This document shows, piece by piece, positions 1,999-58,351 of a stretch of DNA of 64,000 bases. Origin of the DNA: Longitalea arenae (GTDB lineage Bacteria; Bacteroidota; Bacteroidia; Chitinophagales; Chitinophagaceae); assembly GCF_016924755.1 (NCBI RefSeq), contig NZ_JAFFJX010000001.1:744001-808000 (forward strand). The letters are read 5' to 3'. The notes under the pieces are model-generated. The model saw only the letters and a program-made list of their open reading frames with translations. It did no database searches and was not told where the DNA came from. Within the stretch, counting starts at the first letter, position 1. Each line of letters begins with the position of its first letter. The position numbers and the translations under genes are program-made.

Positions 1999-2068
1999 TT
2001 TCTGATTTCTTGATTTCGGGATTTACGATTTCAAATCCCATAATCACTAAATCCCAAAATCTCAAAAT
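1999..2068. repeat. Octad repeat array, inverted pair (cysD-cysN gap)
   Basis: From 2001 the sequence runs in 8-bp units of form NNNGATTT (2001-2031) and then in units of form AAATCNNN (2033-2068), the reverse complement. The array starts at the cysD stop codon and ends 8 bp before the cysN start. The two arms could pair as an imperfect hairpin in the transcript. Confidence 0.85.
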
Positions 2069-2076
2069 TACTTACA

Positions 2077-3315
2077 ATGGATTTACTCAGATTTATAACC
2101 GCAGGCAGTGTAGATGATGGCAAAAGCACATTGATCGGCCGTTTATTATACGATAGCAAAAGCATTATGATCGACCAGCTGGCTGCTATTGAAAAACAAA
2201 GTAAAAACAAAGAGCAGGGAGAAATTGATCTGGCCCTGTTAACAGATGGTCTGCGTGCCGAACGCGAGCAGGGTATTACCATCGATGTGGCGTATAAATA
2301 TTTTTCTACGCCCAAACGCAAATTCATTATTGCCGACGCACCTGGTCATATTCAATATACGCGCAACATGGTCACCGGCGCTTCTACCGCCGACCTGGCC
2401 ATTATCTTAATAGATGCCCGTAACGGCGTGGTGGAACAGACCCGCCGCCATTCGATCATCACTTCTTTATTGAATATTCCGCATGTGGTGGTGGCCATCA
2501 ATAAAATGGACCTGGTTGATTATTCGCAGGATGTTTACAACAATATCGTGATCGATTATGCCGAGGTGGCAAAATCACTGGGACTGAAAGATGTAACCTA
2601 TATTCCCATCAGTGCCGCATTTGGTGATAACATCGTTGAAAAATCACCGAAGATGAGCTGGTTTGAAGGTTCTTCTTTGCTGCAATTCCTGGAATCGGTA
2701 GAAGTAGAAAAAGATATTAATCTCACCAACCCGCGTTTCCCGGTACAATATGTTATTCGTCCGCAAACCGACGATCTGCACGATTACCGTGGTTATGCAG
2801 GAAAGGTGATCAGTGGCATTTACCGTAAAGGCGACGCCATTACCGTGCTTCCTTCCGGACAAACCAGTACGATCAGGGCCATTGAGCACAATGGGAAAGA
2901 AGTAGATGAAGTATTTGCACCGCAAAGCGCCATCCTTCACCTGGAAGATGATATCGATATCAGCCGCGGCGATGTTATTGCAAAAAGCGATGACCTGCCC
3001 AAAACAACCCAGGAACTGGATGTGCTGTTATGCTGGATGGATAATAAACCCCTGGTAACCGGTAATAAATATTTATTGCAGATCAACAGCCGCGTAGTAA
3101 GAAGCGTGGTGAAAGAGATTGAATACAAGCTGGATGTAAACACCCTGCAGAAAACAGATGCAACATCAGCTGTATTGAACGATGTAATAAAAGTAAAAAT
3201 AAAAACAGCTTCGCCTGTTCCGTACGATTCCTACAGCGAATTGCGCGAGAACGGTGGTGCTATCCTGATAGACGAAACAAGCCATGTAACAGTAGGGGCC
3301 TGTATGATTCAATAG
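2077..3315 (+). CDS. cysN: Sulfate adenylyltransferase subunit 1 (regulatory GTPase)
   Basis: GTP hydrolysis by CysN drives the unfavourable formation of APS by CysD. The 412-residue protein has the P-loop GSVDDGKST at 10-18, the G3 motif DAPGH at 87-91 and NKMD at 142-145, followed by elongation-factor-like beta-barrel domains. It ends after these domains with no C-terminal APS kinase, unlike the CysN-CysC fusions of other bacteria. This fits direct APS reduction by the upstream CysH. Confidence 0.96.
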   Translation: MDLLRFITAGSVDDGKSTLIGRLLYDSKSIMIDQLAAIEKQSKNKEQGEIDLALLTDGLRAEREQGITIDVAYKYFSTPKRKFIIADAPGHIQYTRNMVTGASTADLAIILIDARNGVVEQTRRHSIITSLLNIPHVVVAINKMDLVDYSQDVYNNIVIDYAEVAKSLGLKDVTYIPISAAFGDNIVEKSPKMSWFEGSSLLQFLESVEVEKDINLTNPRFPVQYVIRPQTDDLHDYRGYAGKVISGIYRKGDAITVLPSGQTSTIRAIEHNGKEVDEVFAPQSAILHLEDDIDISRGDVIAKSDDLPKTTQELDVLLCWMDNKPLVTGNKYLLQINSRVVRSVVKEIEYKLDVNTLQKTDATSAVLNDVIKVKIKTASPVPYDSYSELRENGGAILIDETSHVTVGACMIQ

Positions 3316-3348
3316 TTGAGCAGTAACCAGATTGTTTAACCTTGAACA

Positions 3349-4185
3349 ATGAATAGTATGAGTACGAGTGAGTTTATACAGCATTTATTTACGCAGCATA
3401 AAAAAGTGGATCGGTCATTTCCCGATAAGGAATTGGCAGAACAGTTCATTGATCAGGTTTTTAACTTCTTGTTTTTGCCTAATAAAAAACATCAGCAGGT
3501 AAGTGATCTCGAAAGAGAGCTCAATTTATTAAAGAGCCACCTGTCGAGCCTCGCATACGATGTGGTGCATAAGGAAGAAAAAGCAGTGCATATTACGGAA
3601 ACCTTCTTTGCTGCTATTCCTGCCCTGTATGCAAAGCTGATAAAAGATGCTGAGGCCCTGTTGCAGTTTGATCCTGCCGCCCGTTCTGTTGAAGAAGTGC
3701 TGGTGGCTTATCCGGGGTTTTATGCAACTGCTGTTTATCGCTTATCGCACCAGTTATGGGAGCAGGGCGTAGAAATACTGCCCAGGTTGTTCACCGAATA
3801 TGCGCATAGCAAAACAGGGGTTGATATTCATCCCGGCGCCCGCATTGGGGAAGCTTTTTGCATTGACCATGGAACCGGCATAGTGATCGGTGAAACAACA
3901 GAGATCGGTAACAACGTGAAAATATATCAGGGTGTAACCCTGGGCGCATTAAGCGTATCGAAAGATAATGTGGCAAAACGTCACCCGACCATTGAAGATA
4001 ATGTGACCATTTATTCAGGCGCTACTATTTTAGGTGGTACCACGATCATAGGAAAGGAAAGTATCATTGGTGGTAATGTTTGGCTAACGTACAGCGTGCC
4101 CTCATTCTCGGTGGTGTATCATAAAAGTGAAGTAAAGGTGCGGGATAAAAATCCATTTCCTGAACCATTGAATTTTGTCATTTAA
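3349..4185 (+). CDS. cysE: Serine O-acetyltransferase
   Basis: Acetylates L-serine with acetyl-CoA to O-acetylserine, the carbon acceptor for sulfide. The 278 residues comprise an alpha-helical N-terminal domain and a left-handed beta-helix from about residue 158, with the hallmark HPGARIG, the catalytic-region His174 in [11 protein letters not shown] and the GVTLGA loop. It lies between cysN (33 bp) and cysK (121 bp). ATG codons at 3349 and 3358 are both usable. I chose the first. Confidence 0.92.
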
Positions 4186-4306
4186 AACAAGCTGTGCCAC
4201 CCGTCTGAAGGATGGCGCTCCTGGCAACACAAAACAGATTAATATGATTACGGAAGAAAAACAGGTTTCAACAAATAATATAAACCACAACCAAAACAAC
4301 CAGAGA

Positions 4307-5221
4307 ATGAGAGCCGGTAATATTCTGGAAACGATCGGCCAAACGCCGCATGTTAAGATCAACAGGCTGTATGGCGATAGTCATGAGGTCTGGATCAAGC
4401 TGGAACGCAACAATCCGGGCAACAGCATTAAAGATCGTATTGCATTATCAATGATCGAAGATGCAGAAAAAAAGGGTATTCTGAATAAAGACAGTGTGAT
4501 CATTGAACCTACATCGGGTAATACCGGTATCGGCTTGGCAATGGTAGCAGCGGTAAAAGGATACAAATTGATCCTGGTGATGCCGGAGTCGATGAGTGTG
4601 GAAAGAAGACAACTGATGGAATTGTACGGCGCCACCTTTGAATTGACGCCGCGGGAGAAAGGCATGAAAGGCGCTATTGAAAAAGCAAAAGAGCTGGTTG
4701 AAAAAACACCCAACGCCTGGATGCCGCAACAATTCGATAATGCAGCAAACGTAAAAGTACACCGGGAAACAACTGCAAAAGAAATCCTCGACAGCTTTCC
4801 TGACGGCATCGATTACCTGATCACCGGCGTGGGAACAGGCGGACATATCACCGGTGTTGCTGAAGTGCTGAAAGAAAAATTTCCTAACCTGAAAGTATTT
4901 GCCGTAGAGCCTGAGCTGTCTGCTGTCATCAGCGGTGGCGCTCCCGGTCCGCATCCTTTACAAGGCCTGGGCGCTGGTTTTATTCCTTCTATCCTGAATA
5001 CAAAATTGCTCGATGGCACCGTACAGGTAGGAAAAGACGAGTCTTTCGTATATGCCCAAAGGCTGGCTAAAGAAGAAGGGATCCTGGCCGGTATTTCAAC
5101 CGGTGCGGCGCTGGCTGCAGTAGCAAAAAAATTAGCCGAGATCCCTAAAGGCGCCCGGGTATTGACCTTCAATTATGATACCGGGGAGCGGTATTTATCA
5201 ATTGATGGCTTATATAAATAG
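4307..5221 (+). CDS. cysK: Cysteine synthase (O-acetylserine thiol-lyase)
   Basis: PLP enzyme that joins O-acetylserine and sulfide to give cysteine. Counting from ATG 4307, Lys42 in NSIKDR is the PLP Schiff-base lysine and PTSGNTG near 68-74 is the substrate/phosphate loop. GTGGHITG binds the PLP phosphate. The open frame continues upstream to 4175 inside cysE, but the family normally begins with M(K/R)AGNILETIG, so 4307 is preferred; ATG 4244 is the alternative. CysM-type enzymes are hard to exclude from sequence alone. Confidence 0.9.
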
Positions 5222-5231
5222 TATAAGGTAG

Positions 5232-6095
5232 ATGCAAACGAACCAGACATATGGTAAAGTAATATTGGCTGCTGCCGGTCCCGGTGATCCGGAACTGGTA
5301 ACGGTTAAAACGGTGCGTTACCTGCAGCAGGCAGAAGTCGTGTTGGCCGATCGCCTGGTAAGCGAGGTACTGTTACAGGAATATGTGAACAGCCAGGCCG
5401 AGATCGTTTTTGTAGGTAAGCAATGCAGCCGCGGTTCAAGCACCCCGCAGTATACGATCAATGAACTGATGGTGCACTATGCTTTGCAGGGCAAGCTGGT
5501 CGTGCGGTTAAAGGGCGGCGATGTATCTATATTCTCGAACATCCTCGATGAACTGCAAACCCTGGTACAGCACAATATACCTTACGAAATTATCCCGGGT
5601 GTTACTGCTGCGCTTGGTGCTGCGGCATATGCAGGCATTCCGTTAACGGCCAGGGGATTCACCACCTCAGTTCGCTTTTTGACCAGTTATAAGCTGGATA
5701 TTGTTACAGACACTTACTGGAAAGAGCTGGCGCAAACGAACGATACCCTGGTGTTTTATATGTCGTCTGAAACATTGGATCATGTAGTGGACAACCTGGT
5801 TAAGAATAAGATCAGCAGTGATAAATTACTGGCAGTTATAGAGCAGGCTACCACGCCTTTGCAACATGTGCACGTAACCAATCTATATAAATACGATGAC
5901 CAGCTTCGGGGAAAGACATTTGTTTCCCCATCGCTGGTGATCATTGGAAAAGTAGTGGCATTGCACGAACAGTTCAAGTGGATCGCGAACAGCAATAGTG
6001 CAGCCCATTATTTCAAACCCCTGGCAAAACTGATTACAACAACATCCGATTCTGAAAATGCGGAAAAAGTAAATAAACATGTTAGCAGAGCATAA
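5232..6095 (+). CDS. cobA: Uroporphyrinogen-III C-methyltransferase (SUMT)
   Basis: Methylates uroporphyrinogen III twice with SAM to give precorrin-2, the precursor of the siroheme needed by CysI. The 287-residue tetrapyrrole methylase has the SAM-site motif GPGDPELVT at 16-24 and VRLKGGD near 91-97; the usual following Pro is Val here (GGDVSIF). The IPGVTAALGAAAYAGIPLT motif is intact. The final steps are supplied by the N-terminal half of the fused gene at 9644. It overlaps cysJ by 17 nt, suggesting translational coupling. Confidence 0.9.
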   Translation: MQTNQTYGKVILAAAGPGDPELVTVKTVRYLQQAEVVLADRLVSEVLLQEYVNSQAEIVFVGKQCSRGSSTPQYTINELMVHYALQGKLVVRLKGGDVSIFSNILDELQTLVQHNIPYEIIPGVTAALGAAAYAGIPLTARGFTTSVRFLTSYKLDIVTDTYWKELAQTNDTLVFYMSSETLDHVVDNLVKNKISSDKLLAVIEQATTPLQHVHVTNLYKYDDQLRGKTFVSPSLVIIGKVVALHEQFKWIANSNSAAHYFKPLAKLITTTSDSENAEKVNKHVSRA

Positions 6096-7836
6096 ATTGA
6101 AATTGTTACAGGATTTAGTAAGGTCTTCTACCAAAGAAGAACTGGTTTGGATGAATGGATTCCTGGCCGGCGTGTTAATGAATTGTCACGACCAGTCCTC
6201 ATTGGCATCAACAACAGCGTCCGCTGCAGCACCTGCAACAGCCGCCGCACCTGTTGCTGCACCCGCTGAAAGCAAACCATCCGTATCGAAGATCACCATC
6301 GCTTATGGTACTGAAACCGGTAACTCAAAAAAGCTGGCTACCGACCTGGCTGCTAAAGCGAAGAAAAGTGGTATTCAGGCCAAAGTAGTAAGCCTTGATC
6401 AATATCGCCTGAATGACCTGGCCAAAGAAGAATACTTCTTTACCATTATCAGCACCCAGGGCGAAGGCGAACCGCCTGCTACTGCAAAGAAATTTTATGA
6501 CCACATTCATCAGAATGGTTTTAAGTTGAATCAATTGAAGTTCGGGGTGCTCGCATTGGGCGATACATCGTATCCCCTGTTCTGCAAGGCCGGCGAAGAC
6601 GTAGACCAACAGTTACAAAAGCTGGGCGGACAACGCATCGCTCCATTGATCAAATGCGATACCGATTACCAGGGTGATGCAGAAGGCTGGTTCTCCCAGG
6701 TACTGCATTCATTAACGACCACTACCAGCAGCAATGGTACTGCGAGTGTGGGCACCGTAGTGGCCAAAAAGCCAACCGGAAAAAAAGTATATACCGGTAA
6801 TATCATTACCAATGTAAATCTGAACGACAGGGGCTCTAACAAAGCCACTCATCATATTGAGATAGTAGCAGACGAGCTGGAATACCAGCCCGGTGATTCC
6901 ATCGGAATAGTTCCGGAAAATGCACCGGCTGCGGTAGATGCTATTATTGGCCTCACCGGTATCGATCCTAAAAAGACATTGCCTTTCCGCAATGAAACAC
7001 ATACTGTTCTTGAGTTATTGAAGAAAAAACTCAACATCGCTTATTTACCTGAGCGCGTGGTGAAGCAGTATGCAGCCATTGTTAAACAGGATATTCCCGA
7101 AACAAAGATCAGTTTACTCGACCTGTTGAAGATCTACCCGGTTAATAATGCCGCCCAGTTCGAGGATGTGATCGCGATTCTGGAGCCTATCACACCGCGC
7201 CTGTATTCCATTTCTTCTTCGCCCGAAGCGCATAGCGGTGAAGTGCATGTGACCGTAGCCCGCGATAATTTCAAAGTGAATGGCGAAGTAAAACATGGCC
7301 TCTGCTCTAATTTCCTGGCCGATCTGCCTGTTGACAGCGCGCTGGAATTTTATGTGCATAAGAACAATCAATTCCGTTTGCCGGCGCCTAATAAAGATGT
7401 GATCATGATCGGACCCGGTACAGGTATTGCGCCATTCAGATCATTCATTGCAGAACGCGATGCTACAGGTGCTACCGGCCGTAACTGGCTGTTCTTCGGC
7501 GACCAGCACTTTACAACCGACTTCCTGTATCAGACAGAAATTCAGAACTGGATCCAAACAGGCGTTTTGACGAAAGTGAACGTAGCCTTTTCAAGGGACC
7601 AGAAATCAAAAATATATGTACAGCATAAAATGCTCGAGAACGCCAGGGCATTTTATGAATGGTTACAGAATGGCGCTTATGTATACATCTGCGGCGCGAA
7701 AGAGCCCATGAGCGTGGATGTTGAAAACACCCTGTTACAGATCATTGAACGTTTTGGCAGTAAAACAAGCGCCCAGGCTGTTGAATATCTGAACAAGCTG
7801 AAAGAAGAAGGAAGGTTCCTAAAGGATGTATATTAG
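6079..7836 (+). CDS. cysJ: Sulfite reductase flavoprotein (diflavin NADPH reductase, CysJ type)
   Basis: Passes electrons from NADPH through FAD and FMN to the sulfite reductase hemoprotein. In order: a short helical N-terminus, an Ala/Pro-rich linker (about 45-65), a flavodoxin domain starting with YGTETGNSKK near 76, an FAD domain with RLYSISSSPE near 375, and an NADPH domain with GPGTGIAPFRSF and YVYICGAKEPM. At 585 residues it is normal for CysJ. It starts inside the end of cobA and precedes cysI by 110 bp. Confidence 0.92.
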   Translation: MLAEHKLKLLQDLVRSSTKEELVWMNGFLAGVLMNCHDQSSLASTTASAAAPATAAAPVAAPAESKPSVSKITIAYGTETGNSKKLATDLAAKAKKSGIQAKVVSLDQYRLNDLAKEEYFFTIISTQGEGEPPATAKKFYDHIHQNGFKLNQLKFGVLALGDTSYPLFCKAGEDVDQQLQKLGGQRIAPLIKCDTDYQGDAEGWFSQVLHSLTTTTSSNGTASVGTVVAKKPTGKKVYTGNIITNVNLNDRGSNKATHHIEIVADELEYQPGDSIGIVPENAPAAVDAIIGLTGIDPKKTLPFRNETHTVLELLKKKLNIAYLPERVVKQYAAIVKQDIPETKISLLDLLKIYPVNNAAQFEDVIAILEPITPRLYSISSSPEAHSGEVHVTVARDNFKVNGEVKHGLCSNFLADLPVDSALEFYVHKNNQFRLPAPNKDVIMIGPGTGIAPFRSFIAERDATGATGRNWLFFGDQHFTTDFLYQTEIQNWIQTGVLTKVNVAFSRDQKSKIYVQHKMLENARAFYEWLQNGAYVYICGAKEPMSVDVENTLLQIIERFGSKTSAQAVEYLNKLKEEGRFLKDVY

Positions 7837-7911
7837 TTCGCTGGTATTAGCAGCATTAAATATTTTGAAATAAACGAATTGTAATAGCGCAGGAGGCCGG
7901 GCCGGTAAAGC

Positions 7912-7939
7912 CCTGAAACCTGCAACTTGAAACCTGGAA
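7912..7939. repeat. Four heptads of form CYTGNAA before cysI
   Basis: Four in-phase 7-bp units fill 7912-7939, seven bases before the cysI start codon. It is a short member of the periodic intergenic arrays seen throughout the window. Confidence 0.7.
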
Positions 7940-7946
7940 CATCAAA

Positions 7947-9638: not shown

Positions 9639-9643
9639 ATATA

Positions 9644-11179: not shown

Positions 11180-11195
11180 TCAATCTATCCAGGAC

Positions 11196-11225
11196 ATCCC
11201 GGTAAAATATTCACCGGGATTTTAA
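11196..11225 (+). terminator. Rho-independent terminator of the cys operon
   Basis: ATCCCGGT at 11196-11203 pairs perfectly with ACCGGGAT at 11213-11220, followed by TTTAAAT. It lies 17 bp after the last cys gene. Confidence 0.7.
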
Positions 11226-15275: not shown

Positions 15276-15892
15276 GATTGACAAGTTTTAAAGATTAAAA
15301 AATGGGTGAATTACGCTACTGACAGAACCTGTAACCGGTTAAGTTATTTCAAGGTCCGGGCTATATAAAGTTTGCCTTTGCCACCGTGTTCCGGTAGAAG
15401 AACTTTGGCGTAACCGCTAAAGCTGTTTGACTAATAGTCATTGAACGTGGGTGGATCAGGGCCGGGTGGAAATATGTATTGGCCAATACATAAGGAACTG
15501 AATCGCCTGGTTGCAACTTCTTTTACTGTTGGATCCTTGGGTTAAGTCAAGCAATTTCGTTTACCGGTTTAACGTAACTGATCTTTTAACCTTCTACGTA
15601 GTGAACAGTAATTTCGGTTATTCGTTTAGGTGTCATTCTTCCATACAAATATAACAGCACCTCGAGGCGAAATCCAAATTCATACCTCGTTATCGGCGTT
15701 TACCGCGCAATCCGCGTATTTCGCGTAATCCGCGCTAACCGCGTTTATCGCGGTAGAATTAAAGCCCCTTGCGGGTAGTTTGCGACAGGCTTTTTTTGTC
15801 AGAATTGAGATATGTCAAGGCATGCTAACGGCATTTTTATAAACAGCTACAGCAAGAGGTGCTGGAACCGGTAATTTTGCAATTGCAAAGGT
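15276..15892. other. Intergenic stretch without a recognisable gene
   Basis: No convincing open frame on either strand. It holds the 9-bp array at 15703-15756 and then an orphan hairpin candidate, AAAGCC (15761-15766) to GGCTTTTTTT near 15790-15799. The promoter of the minus-strand gene at 15275 should lie in the first 100 bases, but I see no strong TAnnTTTG match. Confidence 0.6.
15703..15756. repeat. Six 9-bp CG-rich units (YCGCGNNNN)
   Basis: Six exact in-phase 9-bp units, each starting CCGCG or TCGCG followed by four variable bases. This is the CG-rich, 9-bp member of the periodic array class, with no flanking coding gene on the same side. Confidence 0.8.
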
Positions 15893-15948: not shown

Positions 15949-16012
15949 CCCGGGCTGGTGAGCGAAGTGAGGCGGAGCGTAGCGGAGCCGAACGAAGCGA
16001 AGCCAGCCCGGG
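15949..16012. repeat. GC-rich stem-loop inside the IS, upstream of the transposase
   Basis: CCCGGGCTGG at 15949-15958 pairs perfectly with CCAGCCCGGG at 16003-16012. The 44-nt loop is a degenerate run of GCGAAG and GCGGAGC motifs. It lies 50 bp before the transposase start and could limit read-through or translation of the transposase. Confidence 0.7.
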
Positions 16013-24038: not shown

Positions 24039-24332
24039 CAAAGGCATAAAGGCATAAACCGAAAGAGGCAAAGAGGCATAAAGACGCACAAGTACAAGGC
24101 AAAACAACAGGTAACTGGTAACCGGTAACTGGTAACAGGTAACCGGCAACCGGTAACTGGCAACCGGTAACTGGCAACCGGTAACTGGTAACCGGTAACT
24201 GGTAACTGGTAACTGGTAACAGGTAACCGGTAACCGGTAACTGGCAACCGGTAACTGGCAACTGGTAACTGGTAACCGGTAACTAAGGGAAAGCCAACAA
24301 TAAACTGTAAACAATAAACCATAAACATTTTC
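24039..24332. repeat. OsmC-metZ gap: 25 heptads of form GGYAACN plus NNTAAAC units
   Basis: After a short run of GGCATAAA-like units (24043-24090), 24110-24284 is an unbroken series of 25 in-phase 7-bp units (GGTAACT, GGTAACC, GGCAACC, GGTAACA). Four further heptads of form NNTAAAC occupy 24299-24326, ending just before the metZ start. Minus-strand open frames across it are artefacts of a 7-nt period giving a 7-residue repeat. Confidence 0.9.
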
Positions 24333-26535: not shown

Positions 26536-26585
26536 GATATTGAATCGCCTGCGGATATCTGTAGGATTAGAGACAAGACGATCTG

Positions 26586-26744
26586 TTACAAATTATAAGT
26601 TACAGGTTACAGGTTACTGGTTCCAGGGTGAAACCAATTCATGTGTTCCCTTGTAACTTGTAACCTGGAACGTATTTCAGCCAATTGCAGCAGTCATCAT
26701 CAACAACCCGCAAACTGGTAACTGGTAACCGGTAACTGGTAACC
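26586..26744. repeat. Heptad arrays between the CHAD gene and murF
   Basis: Six 7-bp units TTNCNGG-like at 26586-26627, a reverse-complement arm CCTTGTA/ACTTGTA/ACCTGGA at 26649-26669, and four GGTAACY units at 26717-26744 that abut the end of murF. The last belong to the same unit family as the arrays at 24110 and 50495. Confidence 0.85.
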
Positions 26745-26745
26745 G

Positions 26746-28061: not shown

Positions 28062-28080
28062 CAGGGAGTTTATAGTTTAT

Positions 28081-28220
28081 GGTTTATGGTTTATGGTTTG
28101 TGGTTTATGGTTTGTGGTTTATGGTTTGTGGTTTATGGTTTGTGGTTTATGGTTTGTGGTTTATGGTTTGTGGTTTATGGTTTATGGTTTATGGTTTGTG
28201 GTTTGTGGTTTATGGTTTCT
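28081..28220. repeat. Twenty heptads of form GGTTTRT
   Basis: Units GGTTTAT and GGTTTGT repeat in perfect phase from 28081 to 28220, the last changed to GGTTTCT. The reverse-complement arm (units ACAAACC) lies at 28290-28400. Between them is a non-repetitive 60-bp segment. Confidence 0.9.
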
Positions 28221-28278: not shown

Positions 28279-28374
28279 CGCGGCAGCAACAACAAACTAC
28301 AAACCACAAACCACAAACCCCTATATCGCGGCAGCAACAACAAACTACAAACCACAAACCACAAACCCCTATAT
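28279..28374. repeat. 48-bp direct tandem duplication
   Basis: Bases 28279-28326 and 28327-28374 are two copies of a 48-bp unit beginning CGCGGCAGCAAC and ending CCCCTATAT, with a third copy beginning at 28375. Each copy includes the reverse complement of the GGTTTGT heptads. Confidence 0.85.
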
Positions 28375-28405
28375 CGCGGCAACGATAAACATTAAACCAT
28401 AAACT

Positions 28406-35124: not shown

Positions 35125-35264
35125 TTGATAATTAGCTGATTTGCTGATTAGCTGATTTGCTAATGTGCTAATACAACATAGAATTGAATATATTTGAAGC
35201 GTTCCGGCGTAGCCGGAACGCTTTTTTTTCATTAGCACATCAGCACATCAGCAAATTATCACAT
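35125..35264. repeat. Octad inverted pair around the porV terminator
   Basis: Units ATTAGCTG/ATTTGCTG/ATTTGCTA run from 35131 to 35170, and the reverse-complement units ATTAGCAC/ATCAGCAC/ATTATCAC from 35231 to 35262. The ispF start codon (35266) is contained in the last partial unit. The rho-independent terminator lies between the arms. Confidence 0.88.
35197..35229 (+). terminator. porV terminator
   Basis: GCGTTCCGGC at 35199-35208 pairs exactly with GCCGGAACGC at 35212-35221 around a 3-nt loop, followed by eight T. Confidence 0.88.
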
Positions 35265-35265
35265 T

Positions 35266-35748: not shown

Positions 35749-35883
35749 TAATTCGATAATTTGATAATGTGATAATTGAATACAGGTTTTGTGGGTGCTG
35801 GCGCGTGAAGTGTGGCTATGAAAATAAGGCCCGCCATTGAGGCATTATCGAATTATCACATTATCACATTATCACATTATCAC
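35741..35883. repeat. Octad inverted pair between ispF and dut
   Basis: TAATTTGA/TAATTCGA/TAATGTGA units occupy 35741-35780, overlapping the ispF stop. The reverse-complement units ATTATCGA and four ATTATCAC follow at 35844-35883, leading directly into the dut -7 box. Confidence 0.9.
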
Positions 35884-35885
35884 AT

Positions 35886-35893
35886 TATTTTTG
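35886..35893 (+). promoter_or_regulatory. -7 box four bases before the dut start
   Basis: TATTTTTG matches TAnnTTTG and ends four bases before ATG 35898. It abuts the octad array, and no -33 TTTG is visible inside the array. Confidence 0.45.
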
Positions 35894-35897
35894 CGGC

Positions 35898-38660: not shown

Positions 38661-38666
38661 AATAAT

Positions 38667-38834
38667 CAATCAGCAATTGGCAATATGCCATTGGCAAGCT
38701 GCGTTTCAGGTTTTGCCTATTGCCTATTTTAAACCAATTTTCAATATGCACTAAGCCATTGGCAGGGCCTGCCGAAAACCGGCTTCCGGGCTTCACAGAT
38801 TTGCCTCTTGCTCATTGTCTATTGCTTATTGATA
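38667..38834. repeat. Heptad arrays between the two EnvC-like genes
   Basis: CAATNNG units at 38667-38701, shorter TGCCTAT units near 38714-38727, and reverse-complement-type units ATTGTCT/ATTGCTT/ATTGATA at 38807-38834, just before the start of the second gene. Confidence 0.8.
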
Positions 38835-38847
38835 AAACTCAGCCCCT

Positions 38848-40097: not shown

Positions 40098-40179
40098 TAA
40101 TTAGCTAATTAGCTAATGTGCTAATTAGCTGATTAAATACAACATTAATAACATTAGCACATCAGCACATCAGCTAATT
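40098..40179. repeat. Octad inverted pair between the EnvC-like gene and bshA
   Basis: TAATTAGC/TAATGTGC units at 40098-40129 and reverse-complement-type units ATTAGCAC/ATCAGCAC/ATCAGCTA at 40153-40176. It lies between two convergent genes. Same unit family as the array at 35131. Confidence 0.88.
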
Positions 40180-40185
40180 GTTCTT

Positions 40186-41325: not shown

Positions 41326-41368
41326 ACAGCGGTATAAATTAAGTGTGTGAAGGTAAAAATAAAACAAT

Positions 41369-41479
41369 CATATAGGTCATATAAGTCAAATTGGTCAAAT
41401 AAGTTTAACACCTTCATCCCTCTATTAGCCGTTTTCATTCATTCACTTATATGACTGATTGGCTATTTTGACTGATATT
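41369..41479. repeat. Nonad inverted pair between bshA and an M28 peptidase
   Basis: 9-bp units CATATAGGT/CATATAAGT/CAAATTGGT/CAAATAAGT at 41369-41404 and reverse-complement-type units ACTTATATG/ACTGATTGG/ACTGATATT at 41445-41479 (one unit 8 bp). It lies between divergent genes, so here it may contain both promoters. Confidence 0.82.
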
Positions 41480-41496
41480 AGCGTAAAATAACGCAC

Positions 41497-42855: not shown

Positions 42856-42856
42856 G

Positions 42857-42980
42857 CGCCAAACGCCGAAGGCTTAAGGCCAAACGCCTGCCTCCGAATT
42901 TCGAGCCGATTGGAGTTTACTCGGGAAGCTGCTATTACGGCAATAGCGTTAAGCCTTCGGCGTTAAGCATTCAGCCTTGA
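42857..42980. repeat. Heptad inverted pair after the M28 peptidase
   Basis: CGCCAAA/CGCCGAA/GGCTTAA/GGCCAAA/CGCCTGC at 42857-42891 and GCGTTAA/GCCTTCG/GCGTTAA/GCATTCA/GCCTTGA at 42946-42980. The array begins one base after the peptidase stop codon. Confidence 0.88.
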
Positions 42981-42993
42981 GCATATTCATTTT

Positions 42994-43368: not shown

Positions 43369-43370
43369 AC

Positions 43371-43485
43371 TAAGTTTTAAGTAAAAAGTTATAAGTAATA
43401 AGTTTTAAGTGCGGAGTGACCGGAAAAAAGGCAGTCTGCTTGAATGTGAAAACAAAAAACAATAAACTATAAACCATAAACTATT
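43371..43485. repeat. Two heptad arrays between the small membrane protein and the methylase
   Basis: Six units TAAGTNN (one AAAGTTA) at 43371-43412, two bases after a stop codon, and five units AACNATA-like at 43451-43485 that overlap the stop codon of the minus-strand methylase gene. Confidence 0.85.
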
Positions 43486-49155: not shown

Positions 49156-49252
49156 TTATAAGAGTTTTGGATTTTGGGTGGCGATAGCTGAAATTTGACG
49201 GGCAAATCTATTCCAAATATTCTTTTTTAATAACAGAAATCTACCAAACGCT

Positions 49253-50362: not shown

Positions 50363-50367
50363 GAACA

Positions 50368-50439
50368 ATGTGCTGATTTGCTAATGTGCTGATGTGCTAA
50401 TGTGATAATGTGATAATTCGATAATGTGATAATTCGATA
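50368..50439. repeat. Nine octads (ATNNGCTR / ATNNGATA) after anmK
   Basis: Nine in-phase 8-bp units start five bases after the anmK stop and change from the GCTG/GCTA type to the GATA type (reverse complement of the ATTATCAC family). The gap to 50690 continues with a heptad array and has no gene. Confidence 0.9.
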
Positions 50440-50494
50440 ATTTATTGATGTAAGCATCGGAAACGATGACTGGCTTCAGCTGAATGTAAAGCCT

Positions 50495-50669
50495 GGTAAC
50501 CAGCAACCGGTAACCGGCAACTGGTAACCGGCAACCGGTAACTGGTACCCGGCAACCGGTAACCGGCAACCGGTAACTGGTATCCGGCAACCGGCAACTG
50601 GTACCTGGTAACCGGTAACCGGCAACCGGTAACTGGTACCCGGCAACCGGTAACCGGTAACTGGTAACA
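50495..50669. repeat. 25 heptads of form GGYANCN before an M28 gene
   Basis: Units GGTAACC, GGCAACC, GGTAACT, GGTACCC and similar run in phase for 175 bp, the same unit family and the same number of units (25) as the array at 24110-24284. It ends 21 bp before the next start codon. Confidence 0.9.
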
Positions 50670-50690
50670 AAGAAGTATATTAGCTTACCG

Positions 50691-52448: not shown

Positions 52449-52625
52449 CGGATGAGTTGATAGAGTTGATATAACGGATAATGTTTACCGGAGTTATTAG
52501 GTTGTTGAGTTGTTCAGTTGTTGAGTTATTGAGTGAATAAGTGGTGTAAGATGGATAAAAGCAGTGGAAAAAAAGGTTTCGCTAACTGCCAACTGCAAAC
52601 TGTGAACTTTGAACTGTGAACTGCC
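52449..52625. repeat. Octad (GTTGTTNA) and heptad (AACTGNN) arrays
   Basis: Seven 8-bp units GTTGTTGA-like at 52493-52548 and six exact 7-bp units AACTGCC/AACTGCA/AACTGTG/AACTTTG at 52584-52625, between the M28 gene and a convergent small gene. Confidence 0.85.
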
Positions 52626-52631
52626 ATTCAC

Positions 52632-52661
52632 AAAAAAAGCACCCCGGAAAACCGGAATGCT
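52632..52661 (-). terminator. Terminator of the small exported protein gene
   Basis: AGCACCCCGG at 52639-52648 pairs with CCGGAATGCT at 52652-52661 (two mismatches). Read on the minus strand it is followed by seven T. Confidence 0.7.
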
Positions 52662-52706
52662 CTTTTCTAAATTACTATTGATAGTTGAATGACTGGACGC
52701 TGTTCT

Positions 52707-53108
52707 TTATTTCAGTTTGTTTACTACTGTTTCTTCAACATAAGTATGGCTTCTGTTGATAGTATATACTTCAGTAGTATTGTTCTTTTTAGATTTAACA
52801 GATACGTTCAGGGCAGTATCACCGAATTCTTCCGTTTTCAACATGAACTTTTTAGTGATGTTGGCGCCTTTGAATTTATCGGTATACAGCACATTACCTG
52901 ATTCATCGCGGAAAGTTACAGTGAACTCATCATCTTCAGTATTGGTCAGGTTCAGCTCAAATACGGGCTGGTTTTCCATGTTTCCGATGAATCTTAATTC
53001 TGTATTATGTTGTTTTTTACCTCCGTCGTTAGCCAGTGTTACCGTTGAAGAACCTACGGTTAAAGTGATTAATGTGATAAGGGCGATTGCATAATTAACT
53101 GCTTTCAT
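52707..53108 (-). CDS. Small exported beta-rich protein of unknown function
   Basis: A 133-residue protein with a clear signal peptide (about 1-26) and an all-beta remainder: QPVFELNLTNTEDDEFTVTF, NVLYTDKFKGANITKKF and a final YTINRSHTYVEETVVNKLK. It looks like a single immunoglobulin-like or carboxypeptidase-regulatory-like domain, common as small periplasmic proteins in Bacteroidota. The frame is open to 53189, but ATG 53108 gives the signal peptide. No partner gene nearby. Confidence 0.75.
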   Translation of the reverse strand: MKAVNYAIALITLITLTVGSSTVTLANDGGKKQHNTELRFIGNMENQPVFELNLTNTEDDEFTVTFRDESGNVLYTDKFKGANITKKFMLKTEEFGDTALNVSVKSKKNNTTEVYTINRSHTYVEETVVNKLK

Positions 53109-53332
53109 AGTTGTAATGTTTATATGTATTGCTTTATTACGTTGGTTGTATGGGACAATCGCGGAGGCAGGCAAAACGTAGAATTTCAAGATGTGGGCAA
53201 CGTAGTTTTACGAGTTGTACACCCTTTTGGTGTGTTCGTTGCGTTTCGTAATGCAAACATACATCAGGTTTCACCAGCACGGAAATCAACTAAAGGCCTT
53301 TTTTAGGATGGGTAAGGCCCCATTGGAAAGTT

Positions 53333-53357
53333 AAAACCCGCTGTGGGAGCGGGTTTT
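53333..53357. terminator. Bidirectional terminator
   Basis: AAAACCCGCT at 53333-53342 pairs exactly with AGCGGGTTTT at 53348-53357. It lies 48 bp past the stop of the minus-strand frameshifted gene. Between here and 53108 I see no other feature. Confidence 0.72.
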
Positions 53358-53405
53358 GAGATGATCAGGTCATGATGTCCAACCGTTATTCACGTGTTGT
53401 AATAC

Positions 53406-54541
53406 TTATTTTTTCTGCATCTTTATTTTCCGGTTACCACTGCCTATAACATACATACCAGGTTGTAAATGAGATACATCAATCTTTAAAGAGTTGTTCA
53501 TGGCAGGTGCTGAGCGATATAAGCAGTTTCCATACAGATCTGTAATGGTTACCAGTTCACCGGCCATCATACCGGTTACCTGTATAACATTTGTAAATGG
53601 ATTTGGATAACACTGGATGGTTGTAGGGGTCCGCTGCTCAAAAGAAAGGGTTGTAGTATAACGTATATCCCCCGATGCTGTTGTCATTTTTAACCGGTAG
53701 AATGACTTGCCGGCTAAAGGATGTGCATCTATGAAGTTATATAAAGCAGTAACCTTGTTCATTTGCGTTACACCCGGTACGAGTTCCCATGTTCTTTCAT
53801 TGGCCGATCGTTCAACGGCTACCGACGTAGTTCCTTCGATAGCATTTGCTTTCCAGGATAGTTTGGCCGATTGGTTTGATCCATTCGTTACCAGGAGCTG
53901 AATTGTCCGGGCCGGCAGTATGGAAGGGTCGAGGTAATAAACGGTGATGCTGATATGATCGATCCGCGCAGCGGGCAGTAAGCCCACTATGCCAAGTATT
54001 TCTGCAGAAATGGCCACGCCAAAGTTGGTGCTGTTAATATCTGCGGGTGTCCAGGTGGTGCCCATAGGGCATTCGTATTGCCATAAGTTGAAATAGCATC
54101 AAGATCCTCGGACCATATGGTATTTTGCGCCATATTGGTACCGGTAATCGATCCGTTCTTGATAATGCGCACACTATGATCTGTTACACTGGTAAGATTG
54201 AGCAGCAGGTTGGTTGCACTTTTTTCTACATGTACTTCGATGCCGCAAATAGCCGCTGCCGTGGGAATGGAAAATCCGAAATTGGTGGCTTGCAGGTAAT
54301 CTGTTTGTCCGCTCAGCAGGCTAAGGATCGACGAAGCGGTAGAGCGGTTGTTGTCATTCGTTAGAATGTTCGAAGGATTGCTGAATGAATAGTCGCTTCC
54401 GGGAAATGAGGTGCTTGCAGAGGCGCCCGGACTATTAGGGCCTGAAGCAGTACATTGGGCTTGCGTAAAAACATTGATGAAAAGAGCACAAAGCGTTAGC
54501 ATGGCAATCTTGTTGCCGCTGGGTACGGTTAATGGATACAT
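53406..54541 (-). pseudogene. Frameshifted exported protein with type IX C-terminal sorting domain
   Basis: Two minus-strand frames belong to one gene. The first (from ATG 54541) has a signal peptide ending FTQAQC and a beta-rich domain to NTNALW. The second resumes at about 54065 with GTTWTPADIN and continues through a fibronectin-like region to a type A sorting domain (CYPNPFTNVIQVTG to PGMYVIGSGNRKIKMQKK). One missing G in the GGG at about 54061-54063 would restore a single frame. PorU and PorV in this window would handle the intact product. Sequencing error is the main alternative to a real break. Confidence 0.8.
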
Positions 54542-54727
54542 GATTAATAGGGTTAATGATAATTGAATGCCTGCACGCACATCCGGTCCAGCTTCACCAG
54601 GCATATATAAAAACACCGGATGCATACAGGAGAACCACTATTGCTTATCAAAAAAGCACCTATTAAGTGATATGTGTATTTATTTCTAAGTGTTAATTAT
54701 TATATGAGTAGAAAATACATATGTGTT

Positions 54728-55468
54728 TTAAATGCCCAGCACGCTTTTCAATTTCGCATAACCGGTTTTGCTAACCGGCACCTGTGCCCCGGTCTTTAGT
54801 TGCGCCAGAAAATTTTCTTTTTCATAGGGGTCGATCCGCGTAACCAGCTGAACGTTCACTATATAAGAGCGGTGGGTGCGTACAAACTGTTGGGTATTCA
54901 ATACCTTTTCAAAATGCCCCATGGTCTTGTTCTTGAGAAAGGCGCCTTCTTTGGTGTGGATCTTAACATAATCGTCTGCTGCTTCCAGGTAATGTACATC
55001 GTCGATGGGAATGATCTTTATCTTATTGCCGGTCTTAACAACGATCCGCTGGCTTTGCTGGGGCCCCTGGGCGGCTGTTTCCAGCAGTTCACGGGTATTG
55101 CCGGTTGAACTGGCTGCATCCCGTTCCTGTAACCGTTCAATGGCCTTATCAAAACGTTCCTGGCTGAAGGGCTTCAGCAGGTAATCTACCGCATGGCTTT
55201 CAAAGGCTTTAATGGCATACTCATCAAAGGCAGTGGTAAAGATCACGGCCGGCGGTTGTTCTACCAGTTCCAGCATTTCGAACCCATTGATCTTCGGCAT
55301 TTGTATATCGAGGAAGATCACATCGGGTTGGTGCTGCATAATGGCTTTGATGCCTTCGAAGCCATCATTGCATTCCTGTACTACGCTGATGGAAGTATGT
55401 TGTTGCAGGTATTCCTTTACAACCATCCGGGCAAGGGGCTCATCATCTACAATAATGGCTTTTTTCAT
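54728..55468 (-). CDS. LytTR family response regulator
   Basis: A 246-residue two-component regulator. The receiver domain (1-120) has DD at 8-9, the phospho-acceptor Asp in VIFLDIQMPKING near 55 and Lys in YLLKPF near 103. The LytTR DNA-binding domain (about 140-245) contains DVHYLEAADDYVKIHT and FVRTHRSYIVNV. It is 52 bp after the partner kinase. Targets unknown. Confidence 0.92.
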   Translation of the reverse strand: MKKAIIVDDEPLARMVVKEYLQQHTSISVVQECNDGFEGIKAIMQHQPDVIFLDIQMPKINGFEMLELVEQPPAVIFTTAFDEYAIKAFESHAVDYLLKPFSQERFDKAIERLQERDAASSTGNTRELLETAAQGPQQSQRIVVKTGNKIKIIPIDDVHYLEAADDYVKIHTKEGAFLKNKTMGHFEKVLNTQQFVRTHRSYIVNVQLVTRIDPYEKENFLAQLKTGAQVPVSKTGYAKLKSVLGI

Positions 55469-55520
55469 CTCGGGTCTTTTTTATAAGAATTCAGTTATTC
55501 AATACAAAGTTCGTGATCAG

Positions 55521-56561
55521 CTACACTGCCTGCGGAATTTTTATAACAGTGGTAAACTGGTTATCGATATGGTTTGTGCTCAGCAGATCGTTGCGGGCAA
55601 ACAGCAGGTATAAACGCCGCTGTACGGAACGCAGCCCGAATCCGGTTCCCAGTTTGGGCGATGATGTTTCCGGGTCGAAGGGATTTTCAATGGAAACAAC
55701 CAGGTAATTGTTCTCCCGCCTGGCGCTTATTGTTATGGTTACCGGTTCGGTGGTATCATAGAGGCCGAACTTAATGGCATTTTCGACCAATGGTTGCAAA
55801 AGCATGCTCGGCAATTGCAGTTTGCGGGTGCTTTCATCACTATATACCGCCGTGTTCAGGCGGTGGCCGAAACGCACTTTCTCGATGTCGAGGTATAACT
55901 GCAAATGTTGTAATTCGTCATCCAGGCTTATCCACTGGTGATCTTCTTTCTTTAATGTGCCTCGCAAAAATTCAGAGAGCTGTTGTATCATTTTACGCGC
56001 CTGCGCCGGTTGAATGGTTATTAAGGCGCTGATCGAGTTCAGGCTGTTGAATAGAAAATGCGGTTGTAATTGCTGGCGTAACTTATACAATTCTGCTTCC
56101 CGCGCCAGTTTCTCCGCGTCTGTTTTCCGGTGTTCACTGTCTTTTTGTTCATCCAGTGTATAATACAGTTCACTGACCAGGGCCATACAGAGGGTGATCA
56201 ATAAAGCAATATCGAACCGGATGGGCATGAATTTGTCGAGGAATTGCAGGTATTCGGTCTCATTGGGATAAATGTTGATCATGGCATATTTCACGATAGC
56301 GCTCCAGATCCCTGCTTTGGCAGCGCAAACAATGATCACATAAATATACTTTCCTCTCTTGGGCCGGTAATACCGGAGGTTATTAATAACAATGATGGTT
56401 ACCGATGCCAGCAATACATTACTCACCAGGCTGTCCATGGCAGATACATACCAGGCAAATCCCCAGTCATGTAGGATCTTCACCTGCATAAGCGACCAGG
56501 CAAGCCAGGCTGCTGCAAACAGGAGCTTATTTTTTAAAGTACCTAATGGAGATGCTGCCAC
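55521..56561 (-). CDS. LytS-type sensor histidine kinase
   Basis: A 346-residue membrane kinase starting at GTG 56561. Four N-terminal hydrophobic segments (to about 140) are followed by a short coil and a His_kinase domain with the phospho-acceptor in LQPHFLFNSLNSISAL near 170-185. The ATPase part has LLQPLVENAIKFG and LGTGFGLRSVQRRL. No large sensor domain, so the membrane part probably senses the signal or works with the LiaF-like protein upstream. Confidence 0.92.
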   Translation of the reverse strand: MAASPLGTLKNKLLFAAAWLAWSLMQVKILHDWGFAWYVSAMDSLVSNVLLASVTIIVINNLRYYRPKRGKYIYVIIVCAAKAGIWSAIVKYAMINIYPNETEYLQFLDKFMPIRFDIALLITLCMALVSELYYTLDEQKDSEHRKTDAEKLAREAELYKLRQQLQPHFLFNSLNSISALITIQPAQARKMIQQLSEFLRGTLKKEDHQWISLDDELQHLQLYLDIEKVRFGHRLNTAVYSDESTRKLQLPSMLLQPLVENAIKFGLYDTTEPVTITISARRENNYLVVSIENPFDPETSSPKLGTGFGLRSVQRRLYLLFARNDLLSTNHIDNQFTTVIKIPQAV

Positions 56562-56639
56562 TGTGTATATTTTTTTGTATGCTGTCTTGCGTTATGCGTT
56601 TCGCGCATGTATCGCCTTCGGCGGATGCTGCGTTTCGCG

Positions 56640-56999
56640 TTATAGTAACTGCAAATATTTGTGCGTATTGTTCGATTGGATGTGAGCGGCTTTTTTATGC
56701 ACCAGCTCTATGTATGTACCGGCGTTATCGGTTTCCTGGATGCGCGAATACAATTCGGCGCCATCGATCAGGGCTGATATTTTATACAGCTCACAAACAT
56801 TTATAAACTGCCAGGTGACCAGTTTTTGTTGCTGGTTCAGGAACATTTCCTGCTCCTGTTCTCCAATGGCTTTTGCTTTAGCAAACGCTTCCTGCTCATC
56901 GGCAGCCTGTACCAGTCGCAGCTGCTCGTCAAACTGTGCCGTGTGGTCACCTTCGCCACAAACGATCCTGTACACTATTTTAGCCAGAAACCAGTTCAT
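56640..56999 (-). CDS. DUF4288 protein
   Basis: A 119-residue cytoplasmic protein of the DUF4288 family, recognisable from its start (NWFLAKIVYRIVCGEGDHTAQFDEQLRLV in outline), the EAFAKAKAIGEQEQ helix and WQFINVCELYKISALIDGAELYSRI. No function is known. It sits between the LiaF-like gene and the kinase in one apparent operon. Confidence 0.8.
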   Translation of the reverse strand: MNWFLAKIVYRIVCGEGDHTAQFDEQLRLVQAADEQEAFAKAKAIGEQEQEMFLNQQQKLVTWQFINVCELYKISALIDGAELYSRIQETDNAGTYIELVHKKAAHIQSNNTHKYLQLL

Positions 57000-57035
57000 A
57001 CAATTATTTTTTAATGGTTGGGTGAAACTTTTGTA

Positions 57036-57944
57036 TCAATAGCTTTTTATTTCAATACCGCCGAATAAAGTAGTGCCGTTCAGCACGATCACTTTGTCTT
57101 CGTCATAGCTGGTTTGGGGCGGGCGTTTATCTTCTATGCCGCCAAATACGGCAACCATTGTTTCGGAACGTATCTGCCAGTGGGGGGGAACGATCAGTTT
57201 GGCGCCGCCAAAGATTTGTACCATTTCAATCACGATCGAGCCGTTGAAATCGGCATGGGTCAGATTGATCTCTGCACCGCCAAAGATGGATACGATATCG
57301 CCGCCCTTGAAGTTCTTCGAATAAACCATTTTTTTAACGTTACCGAAGATCGTCACTACATCGAGCCAGTTATCAGGACTTCTTCTCTTCCGGTCAACAG
57401 CGGGTGTGATGGTTGTTTCCTGGTTTTCCATTCGCGTAATATCTTCTGCGGCAGATGCTTCCAGTTCAGGCTCTGCTGGGCGTCCCCGTTCCCATTGCTG
57501 CAGGTATTGTTCTTTCTCGCTGTCGTTCAAAGCCCTGAACTTTTCCCAGCGTTCATGCCACTGGCGGTGACGGCGGGGAGCCAGGATGATAATAAAGCCT
57601 ACGGCTATAATAAGCACCGGCCAGATAAACATGTATATATTGGTATTGGGCCAGATCTGTTGCAGTAAGAATACCGAACCTACGCCGCAGATCACCACCC
57701 AGCCCGGGTCACGAAAGGCATTGCCGGCGCCGGCCAGTAAACCGAAGGCAACGATGATCATGGGCCAGGTAAAGAACCAGGTGGGAAAAGGCACTCCCAA
57801 TGCTCTCAGGAGAAGCAGGGTGCCAATACACAGTAAGAGCAGGCCGGCCAGCACACTACCGCTTTTTTTCCGCCTTTTCAGGAACTGTTTCCGGTGGGCT
57901 CTTCTGAAGGCTTTCCGCTGTTCCCTGAGAGTATTGTCGCGCAT
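57036..57944 (-). CDS. LiaF-like membrane protein (DUF5668 plus LiaF C-terminal domain)
   Basis: A 302-residue protein: basic N-terminus, four hydrophobic segments in pairs (about 28-120, the DUF5668 region), a charged linker, and a C-terminal right-handed repeat (about 200-300) with WLDVVTIFGNVKKMVYSKNFKGGDIVSIFGGAEINLTHADF in outline, the LiaF/cell-wall-response domain. LiaF in Bacillus inhibits the kinase LiaS. Here the kinase is LytS-type with a LytTR regulator. First gene of the four-gene operon. Confidence 0.85.
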   Translation of the reverse strand: MRDNTLREQRKAFRRAHRKQFLKRRKKSGSVLAGLLLLCIGTLLLLRALGVPFPTWFFTWPMIIVAFGLLAGAGNAFRDPGWVVICGVGSVFLLQQIWPNTNIYMFIWPVLIIAVGFIIILAPRRHRQWHERWEKFRALNDSEKEQYLQQWERGRPAEPELEASAAEDITRMENQETTITPAVDRKRRSPDNWLDVVTIFGNVKKMVYSKNFKGGDIVSIFGGAEINLTHADFNGSIVIEMVQIFGGAKLIVPPHWQIRSETMVAVFGGIEDKRPPQTSYDEDKVIVLNGTTLFGGIEIKSY

Positions 57945-58066
57945 CGATTAATAATTTTACACAAAGCTATTTCCCGGCGCACAGGGAGACAAGCGCCGGC
58001 CGCCAGACGGGAGGTAGAAGTCGGTAAAAGCGGATTTTTTACCGGTAAAAATGGCGGGTTGCTGGT

Positions 58067-58351
58067 TGCCGGTTACGGGTTGCCGGTTTCAGGTTACAGG
58101 TTACAGGTTTCAGGTTACAGGTTTCAGGGGCAGTTACCGGTTGCCGGTTCCAGGTTACAGGTTTCAGGTTTCAGGGGCAGTTACCGGTTGCCAGTTACCG
58201 GTTGCCGGTTACCAGTTGCCGGTTACCGGTTTCCGGTTACCAGTTACCGGTCGCCGGTCACCAGTGGCTGAACAATGGTCGCTGTCGCCCGTACCGGCGC
58301 CGCTGTATTCCATTATCGAATTATCACATTATCACATTATCACATTGTCAC
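58067..58351. repeat. Composite array: GGTTRCC heptads followed by ATTATCAC octads
   Basis: Heptads GGTTGCC, GGTTACA, GGTTTCA and similar run from about 58067 to 58266 with at least one phase break near 58137. Octads ATTATCGA, ATTATCAC (three) and ATTGTCAC occupy 58312-58351. The stop codon of the Crp-family gene (58348) is contained in the last octad. The order and strand are the reverse complement of the composite array at 50368-50669. Confidence 0.88.

Follow-up and report, generated by a model that had tools for sequence, protein, structure and literature searches.

The window analysed here is a stretch of 64,000 bp from Longitalea arenae (family Chitinophagaceae, Niastella-like; genome 7.28 Mb), bases 744001-808000 of a 1.24-Mb contig, in which many of the gaps between genes are occupied by arrays of short tandem units. 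The arrays are intergenic, have a period of 7 or 8 bp (sometimes 9 bp), often form inverted pairs of the same word, and are nearly missing from gaps of conserved length. Gene edges were taken from a home-made gene caller, so that start codons are approximate. Arrays were detected by lag-match scoring of the gaps, with dinucleotide shuffles and an equal length of coding DNA as controls; a strict threshold was used for the main window list, and threshold 9 is more permissive. The window region is syntenic in eight relatives (labelled G001-G007 and G009), and the larger sample comprises 2.66 Mb and 1,753 gaps from nine Niastella genomes. The features of the window are as follows, with the strand where one applies.

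1999-2076, tandem gap, period 8: GATTTNNG-type arm at about 2003-2024 (threshold 9 only) and inverted AAATCNCA-type arm at 2034-2068; similar pair in G007.
15703-15752: weak period-9 array YCGCGNNNN (Tandem Repeats Finder, lag score 13.5).
24040-24058, plus strand: AAAGGCAT array, period 8, directly 3' of a stop codon.
24106-24283: GGYAACN array, period 7, about 25 units (Tandem Repeats Finder, lag scoring).
24301-24326, minus strand: AAACNATA-type array, period 7.
26586-26622, plus strand: GTTACAG arm, period 7, in a convergent gap (lag scoring).
26650-26671, minus strand: CTTGTAAC arm, period 7.
26713-26743: GGTAACN array, period 7 (lag scoring).
28067-28218, plus strand: GTTTRTG arm, period 7, about 21 units (Tandem Repeats Finder, lag scoring).
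28288-28319, minus strand: inverted CAAACNA arm, copy 1 (lag scoring).
28336-28367, minus strand: inverted CAAACNA arm, copy 2 of a 48-bp duplication (Tandem Repeats Finder, lag scoring).
35131-35172, plus strand: ATTNGCTG arm, period 8 (lag scoring).
35230-35265, minus strand: inverted arm, period 8, with a T-run hairpin in the intervening loop (lag scoring, RNA folding).
35749-35776, plus strand: GATAATTT/GATAATGT arm, period 8 (lag scoring).
35777-35843: spacer, its left end carrying GAATACAG; oriented alike in G007 but reversed in G006 and G005.
35844-35888, minus strand: ATTATCAC arm, period 8 (lag scoring).
40098-40135, plus strand: TAATTAGC arm, period 8, in a convergent gap (lag scoring).
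40151-40174, minus strand: inverted arm, period 8 (lag scoring).
41368-41400, plus strand: period-9 GTCAAATNN array; all 8/8 compared relatives have a 50-65 bp gap without an array.
42856-42993: inverted pair of the word GCGTTNA, below the array threshold; elsewhere, both arms carry another word or a short hairpin takes their place.
43371-43410, plus strand: AAGTTTT arm, period 7 (lag scoring).
43449-43480, minus strand: AAACNAT array, period 7 (lag scoring).
50368-50442, plus strand: ATGTGMTA array, period 8 (lag scoring).
50498-50668: GGYAACN array, period 7, of a different family from the neighbouring ATGTGMTA array (lag scoring).
52493-52543, plus strand: GTTGTTGA array, period 8 (lag scoring).
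52581-52623, minus strand: AACTGTG array, period 7, of a different family from the GTTGTTGA array (lag scoring).
58054-58265, plus strand: GGTTRCN arrays, period 7, in three adjoining blocks (lag scoring).
58312-58346, minus strand: ATTATCAC array, period 8, flanked on the inner side by GGAATACAG at 58303-58311 (lag scoring, inner-end count).

Strict lag scoring of 464 kb yielded 60 arrays in 42/337 gaps (31 of period 7, 23 of period 8, five of period 9 and one of period 11), against zero with five shuffles per gap and about 0.6 in an equal length of coding DNA. At a lower threshold, 864 kb of the same genome contained 76 arrays of period 7 (0.3 in shuffles, 1.1 in equal coding DNA), 57 of period 8 (0.3 and 1.1) and 6 of period 9 (1.0 and 2.0), together with eight of period 11 and two of period 12. 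The median array has 4.6 units. In 38 gaps of the window, 8,464 bp in total, the autocorrelation was high relative to 100 dinucleotide shuffles at lags 7 (z 15.6), 8 (z 10.0), 14, 21 and 28, with no rise at lags 9-12, and Tandem Repeats Finder picked up the arrays at the named places. The periodic arrays that a sequence-only reading of the window had described, and for which it had proposed autocorrelation at lags 6-12, are therefore real; they are also not peculiar to one assembly, as arrays lie at orthologous gaps in other species. Some details of that reading need correction. It counted at least 16 gaps with arrays in the window, and the strict threshold gives 13, the gap 38661-38847 having an array at threshold 9 only and the gap 42856-42993 having an inverted pair with no array even at that threshold. 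It held the period to be equal in both paired arms, but the gaps 50363-50690, 52449-52706 and 57945-58347 mix period-7 and period-8 families, and its period-9 array at 15703 is detectable but weak. Finally, the arrays called strictly periodic do keep their phase, but their units vary, with an identity of 0.81 between neighbours, 0.80 between units two apart and 0.74 between units five apart.

The same reading knew no name for these arrays; published relatives of the class do exist. PMC4692102 describes heptameric simple sequence repeat (SSR) arrays of GGGAATC or GGGGA(C/T)T in Xanthomonas and Nostoc, with convergent inverted pairs and the same strand and position rule as reported below, and proposes DNA quadruplexes for these G-rich heptamers. 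The layout and the position and strand rule are thus shared, whereas many words and also 8- and 9-bp units occur here, and the G-tracts of the GGGAATC type are lacking, a G3+ quadruplex motif being present in only 2/382 arrays (G2+ in 68/382). Three tandem pairs of Xanthomonas/Nostoc-type words were looked for in the 2.66 Mb, and none was found. In filamentous cyanobacteria, short tandemly repeated repetitive sequences (STRRs) are, as outlined in PMC2670836, mostly 7-bp tandem repeats able to form intergenic hairpins, with their function unknown. Units of 7 bp and hairpin-capable pairs between genes are common to both systems, but several periods and words occur in one genome here, and the likeness is one of description, not word by word. 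Short intergenic tandem units, convergent inverted pairs and a position and strand rule, the marks of the STRR/heptameric-SSR class, are all present. A third relative, the TAACTGA heptamer, is recorded in PMC4679880 for Beggiatoaceae, Cyanobacteria and five Bacteroidetes; in Flexibacter litoralis it lies mostly forward before starts, with one set reversed after a stop. Both systems consist of intergenic heptamer arrays near gene edges, but the TAACTGA system has a single word where many are found here, and TAACTGATAACTGA is absent from the 2.66 Mb, in which no tandem pair of TAACTGA occurs. An earlier survey of long simple repeats, by Mrazek (2007), is cited in both PMC4679880 and PMC4692102. 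Among the papers listed in searches of the open-licence PMC literature, none dealt with arrays of this kind in Niastella or other Chitinophagaceae.

In short, the class is already known, and this variant of it stands out by the many words, the three periods and the almost complete lack of a quadruplex motif. Heptamer arrays in cyanobacteria, xanthomonads and Beggiatoaceae have been without an agreed function or origin. Many unrelated words obeying one geometry make the geometry separable from the sequence, and the question of origin becomes testable by strain resequencing. The gaps compared here also provide one slot where the two arms switched jointly, and one case of an inverted spacer.

The sequence-only reading had described the arrays as often forming inverted pairs; 46/99 array gaps contain an inverted partner of the same word, compared with 6.6% when the rest of the gap was swapped from other array gaps, and direct partners occur in 17/99 (control 7.1%). 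Unit identity in 47 pairs was 0.76 between arms, 0.83 within an arm and 0.51 against same-period arrays of other gaps. Change was followed in 24 orthologous gaps seen in at least six genomes, of which eight are length-conserved (variation <15%) and 16 more variable. Arrays occupied 1/70 species-gaps of the former and 61/138 of the latter, a split that is partly circular because arrays themselves change gap length. In a tree built from 15 proteins, the species fall into ((window,G007),G003), (G006,G002) and (G001,(G004,(G005,G009))), with weak support for the placement of G001. At 42856-42993, the word is GCGTTNA in the window, G007, G003 and G006, and CAATAGG in G005, G004 and G002, whose own arms pair at 16-22, while a comparison of their left arms with the left arms of the GCGTTNA species gives scores no higher than 5. 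In G009, the sister of G005, the GCGTTNA word forms a short, perfect hairpin. Both arms have thus changed word together, and more than once. At 26536-26745, the word differs in most species and two species have only 9 or 15 bp; at 35749-35897, all seven genomes with arrays have one array family; and at 41368-41496, the difference from the relatives is gain-like. In the G004 gap orthologous to 50363-50690, a long near-perfect CCGTCTG heptamer array lies among degenerate ones and is probably a young expansion.

The spacer at 35749-35897 (it starts with GAATACAGGGTTTTGTGAGTGCT in G007) has also changed orientation. This end lies on the left arm in the window and G007, and is reversed, on the right arm, in G006 and G005, while the order and strand of the flanking genes are unchanged. 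On the minus strand, G005 matches G007 at 78% over 55 bp (E 1e-9) and G006 matches G007 at 86% over 36 bp (E 1e-8); the spacer is also inverted in G006 relative to the window. Among the 40 of 70 matches listed in a minus-strand scan, three fall at 35749-35897, and a weak 20-bp match between two species at 43369-43480 (E 0.008) is perhaps a second inversion; the others look by eye like near-palindromic hairpins or remnants of arrays.

We put the odds at slightly below even (about 0.48) that the arrays are degenerate short tandems of the STRR/heptameric-SSR kind which occupy weakly constrained spacer DNA and evolve by turnover at the DNA level. Unit number and variants would shift by slippage or unequal exchange, as suggested by neighbouring units being more alike than distant ones. 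The inverted arms would keep exchanging sequence by recombination or by fold-back template switching across the spacer, which would keep them alike and could flip the spacer, and the limits would be imposed by reading frames and promoters. The preference for length-variable gaps, the joint change of both arms, the inverted spacer, the higher unit identity between paired arms than between gaps, the lack of a G:U excess and the absence of a loop match to another gap in most array gaps (see below) argue for such turnover.

Several results weigh against turnover as a full account. The inverted arms are not exact copies of each other. The single clear spacer inversion gives a lead and no rate; moreover, at another locus (position 668636 of the same contig) the spacer orientation is kept in five genomes matched by eye and the variant order of the left array in several species, so that turnover is not fast everywhere. 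Families also recur at separate gaps 6 to 14 times above shuffled words, in agreement with the sequence-only reading, which had noticed families at distant loci: word pairs within one mismatch across separate gaps of the L. arenae genome numbered 384 against 59 shuffled at period 7 (83 arrays) and 285 against 20 at period 8 (59 arrays).

The most unexpected result is that arrays of different words share words at their inner ends, which also points to some copying between loci. Of 350 arrays, 32 have ATACAG no more than 15 nt past the 3' end of the G strand, on the spacer side, against 203/37,709 background 18-mers, and on the gene side 2/228 have it; any p-value here is nominal because arrays within one gap are not independent. 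By period, it occurs in 22/123 arrays of period 8, 9/203 of period 7 and 1/24 of period 9. An unbiased count of inner-end words in 295 gaps gave CTCGCGA in 12 gaps (0.11 expected), GCTCGCG in nine (0.11), AATACAG in 26 (1.45) and TGCCGCG in eight (0.44). AATACAG and GCTCGCGA lie at the spacer-side ends of different array families (for example, 35778-35785, 58303-58311 and L021 13100-13343), in some gaps inverted on both arms, and GCTCGCGA accompanies several different 7-bp array words. Beyond these words the loops differ, most array gaps having no loop match to another gap. Even so, of 92 within-genome loop matches (51 between array-less gaps, 18 mixed), 23 join two array gaps, against about 3.5 predicted from gap numbers (342 of the 1,753 gaps have arrays), and some of these may be unmasked array remnants. 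GTTTATG arrays repeatedly have a TTCTTTTATTCGG-like sequence at their inner end (43369-43480 in G003 and G007), and it is this sequence that gives the weak minus-strand match mentioned above.

The remaining difficulty is a strand rule. For 218 arrays, one gene edge and no other lies at a distance of up to 50 bp; the strand that reads outward from it is richer in G than in C in 180 of them and poorer in 30. By class, the ratios are 68:14 (tandem) and 58:7 (convergent) at 3' edges, and 41:6 (tandem) and 13:3 (divergent) at 5' edges. In gaps without arrays, the corresponding ratios are 232:240 at 3' edges (no skew) and 473:253 at 5' edges (skewed). The G-richer array comes first in 43/45 gaps with two detected pairing arrays, and the G arm first in 68:14 hairpins with both arms in arrays and 145:25 of all array hairpins, compared with 55:66 in T-run hairpins, 26:45 in other short-loop hairpins and 92:70 in other long-loop hairpins. 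Partnerless arrays within 30 bp of an edge follow the outward rule (31:8 at 3' and 14:4 at 5' edges), whereas those farther away barely do so (8:6 and 7:3), and arrays with a partner also lose it at a distance (29:23 and 23:12). The rule does not need quadruplexes, given the rarity of the G3+ motif. It does weigh against turnover because neutral slippage does not predict the G arm first or the outward orientation. The G-rich-outward rule, the recurrence of words and the shared inner ends are thus real and beyond the reach of the turnover account; transcripts may be under selection, or the ends of arrays may be copied between loci.

An alternative that we consider unlikely, although it has several results on its side, is that the arms are kept for RNA folding, as a stabiliser, a coupling element or a bidirectional intergenic terminator; such a role is also the usual suggestion for cyanobacterial STRRs. 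Arrays are commonest in convergent gaps (64/198 of those of at least 80 bp, compared with 168/862 tandem and 33/297 divergent gaps), and the joint switch of both arms at 42856-42993 is as expected of a conserved stem. RNA folding of four window gaps was better than that of shuffles to differing degrees (z -8.6, -2.7, -5.4 and -1.5): in the first and the second, the arms pair with each other (a T-run hairpin contributing in the first), the left arm of the third folds on itself, and the arms of the fourth barely pair. Separate T-run hairpins are rarer in array gaps than in other gaps (convergent 12/77 and 30/121, tandem 10/206 and 53/656, divergent 2/45 and 18/252), so that some arrays could stand in for terminators. 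However, array hairpins do not have the form of intrinsic terminators, only 27/177 being followed by a T run or preceded by an A run; their loops are long (median 48 nt), and 53/99 array gaps have no inverted partner at a score of at least 11. Moreover, stems maintained for RNA pairing would be predicted to have more G:U than A:C mismatches on the coding strand, but array hairpins in tandem gaps show no G:U excess there (G:U 164, A:C 146; 38:32 gaps, p 0.55), whereas control tandem hairpins followed by a T run or preceded by an A run gave 48 and 23 (21:5 gaps, p 0.0025). This control is not clean (46:38 in forward T-run hairpins of all gap classes and 145:116 in other tandem hairpins), and the test of array hairpins is weakened because a tandem array pairs in many registers. 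In convergent gaps, G:U 37 and A:C 84 were counted although the strand is arbitrary there; the mismatches of one array thus depend on one another, and p-values from pooled counts exaggerate the significance.

A further alternative is that the arrays belong to mobile elements of the foldback type. Eukaryotic foldback transposons have long inverted ends made of short tandem subrepeats around variable loops, and inverted subrepeat ends and variable loops are found here as well. The array and the inner-end word would then be the inverted ends of small non-autonomous elements that move from gap to gap, and the loop their cargo. The polar inner ends, the words recurring at separate gaps, the over-represented loop matches between array gaps and the gain-like difference at 41368-41496 are in keeping with such elements; nevertheless, they seem improbable, since 23 array-array loop matches are few for 342 array gaps and one inner word pairs with several array words. 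Mobile cassettes with long shared loops were rejected as the main account, 23/92 loop matches joining array gaps, although this exceeds the number predicted. A word-independent process that builds polar 7-9-bp arrays, their G-rich strand leading from the gene edge to a short conserved word at the inner end, on both sides of a spacer in distant phyla, with the pairs as foldback-type terminal inverted repeats or products of templated end addition and with an invertible spacer, is likewise improbable. Least probable of all is that strand composition itself would be selected, outgoing transcripts reading the G-richer array and incoming ones the C-richer, G-poor strand (for example, for Rho or against antisense read-through): the outward rule at 3' and 5' edges in all three gap classes and in unpaired arrays near edges would fit, as would the unskewed 3' edges of array-less gaps, but the YC dinucleotides of Rho-type sites are not enriched on the C strand of arrays (133 per kb against 156 in shuffles) and 5' edges are already skewed without arrays.

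Other known or conceivable identities were considered. Clustered regularly interspaced short palindromic repeats (CRISPR) are ruled out, as the sequence-only reading had also held, because the units abut head to tail without unique spacers, and an Rfam scan of the window gave no family at the gathering threshold. For REP and BOX elements, which are families of conserved palindromes and which that reading had also set aside, the pertinent results are this empty scan of the window and loops that mostly differ from gap to gap. Cyanobacterial genomes rich in highly iterated palindrome 1 (HIP1, GCGATCGC) carry it abundantly, and the four sites in the window (0.99 in shuffles) are far too few for such a genome. 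The inward strand has fewer ATGs than shuffles at 3' edges (3.4 per kb against 9.3) as well as at 5' edges (4.1 against 8.5); 5' edges are thus not singled out, and avoidance of spurious starts was rejected.

With respect to gene edges, 116/429 array-edge pairs at stop codons are separated by at most 10 bp (33 expected if uniform), compared with 24/335 at start-codon edges (21 expected). Most arrays halt at the gene: among the 99 starting within 6 bp of a stop codon, matching crosses the boundary in 33 and extends at least 6 nt past it in only 12, so that arrays running into genes were rejected as a general pattern. TAG stops are commoner where an array follows within 6 bp (34/99 against 331/1,603; Fisher p 0.002).

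The abundance of arrays differs among genomes. In the nine Niastella genomes, array-bearing gaps numbered 143/835 in the genome of the window, 68/300 in G005, 74/298 in G002 and 5/66 in G001. GGYAACN in triplicate was present in 10/10 genomes of the genus and in 1/29 of other genera and families; in the genome of the window it matches at 579 places, overlaps included, and the reversed pattern, which is itself array-like, at 98. Around one conserved gene, arrays were found at 20/80 loci (4/6 of those from Niastella); Flavihumibacter and Pinibacter are among the genera that have them, though the words there are others. The 20-40 kb samples of five other genomes of the family had arrays in 7/15, 1/25, 0/21, 0/27 and 0/11 gaps. 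Ku end joining was rejected as a prerequisite: Ku was found in 6/16 genomes with an array locus and 12/29 without, a comparison that covers 45 of the 74 non-Niastella loci, judges arrays from loci of about 3.5-6.5 kb only and includes many metagenome assemblies. Among the genomes drawn, Ku occurred in 32/60 of the family and 10/61 of the phylum, and genome G000 has two Ku matches (contigs C35 and C14).

Some minor observations concern single places in the window. A perfect 48-bp direct duplication that includes an array arm (28279-28381) suggests a recent local duplication. The 41368 array was likened to ancestral promoter sequence by eye only, and a CGAAGCGAAGCCGAA-type repeat at 15963-16004 (Tandem Repeats Finder), which by eye lies within a GC-rich inverted repeat, is unlike the other arrays. 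At 35889-35897 and several other starts, a TTTTGC-like sequence, which resembles the -7 box of Bacteroidota, was seen by eye within about 10 nt of the ATG; this suggests very short leaders, in which case the 5' arrays would be upstream of the transcription start.

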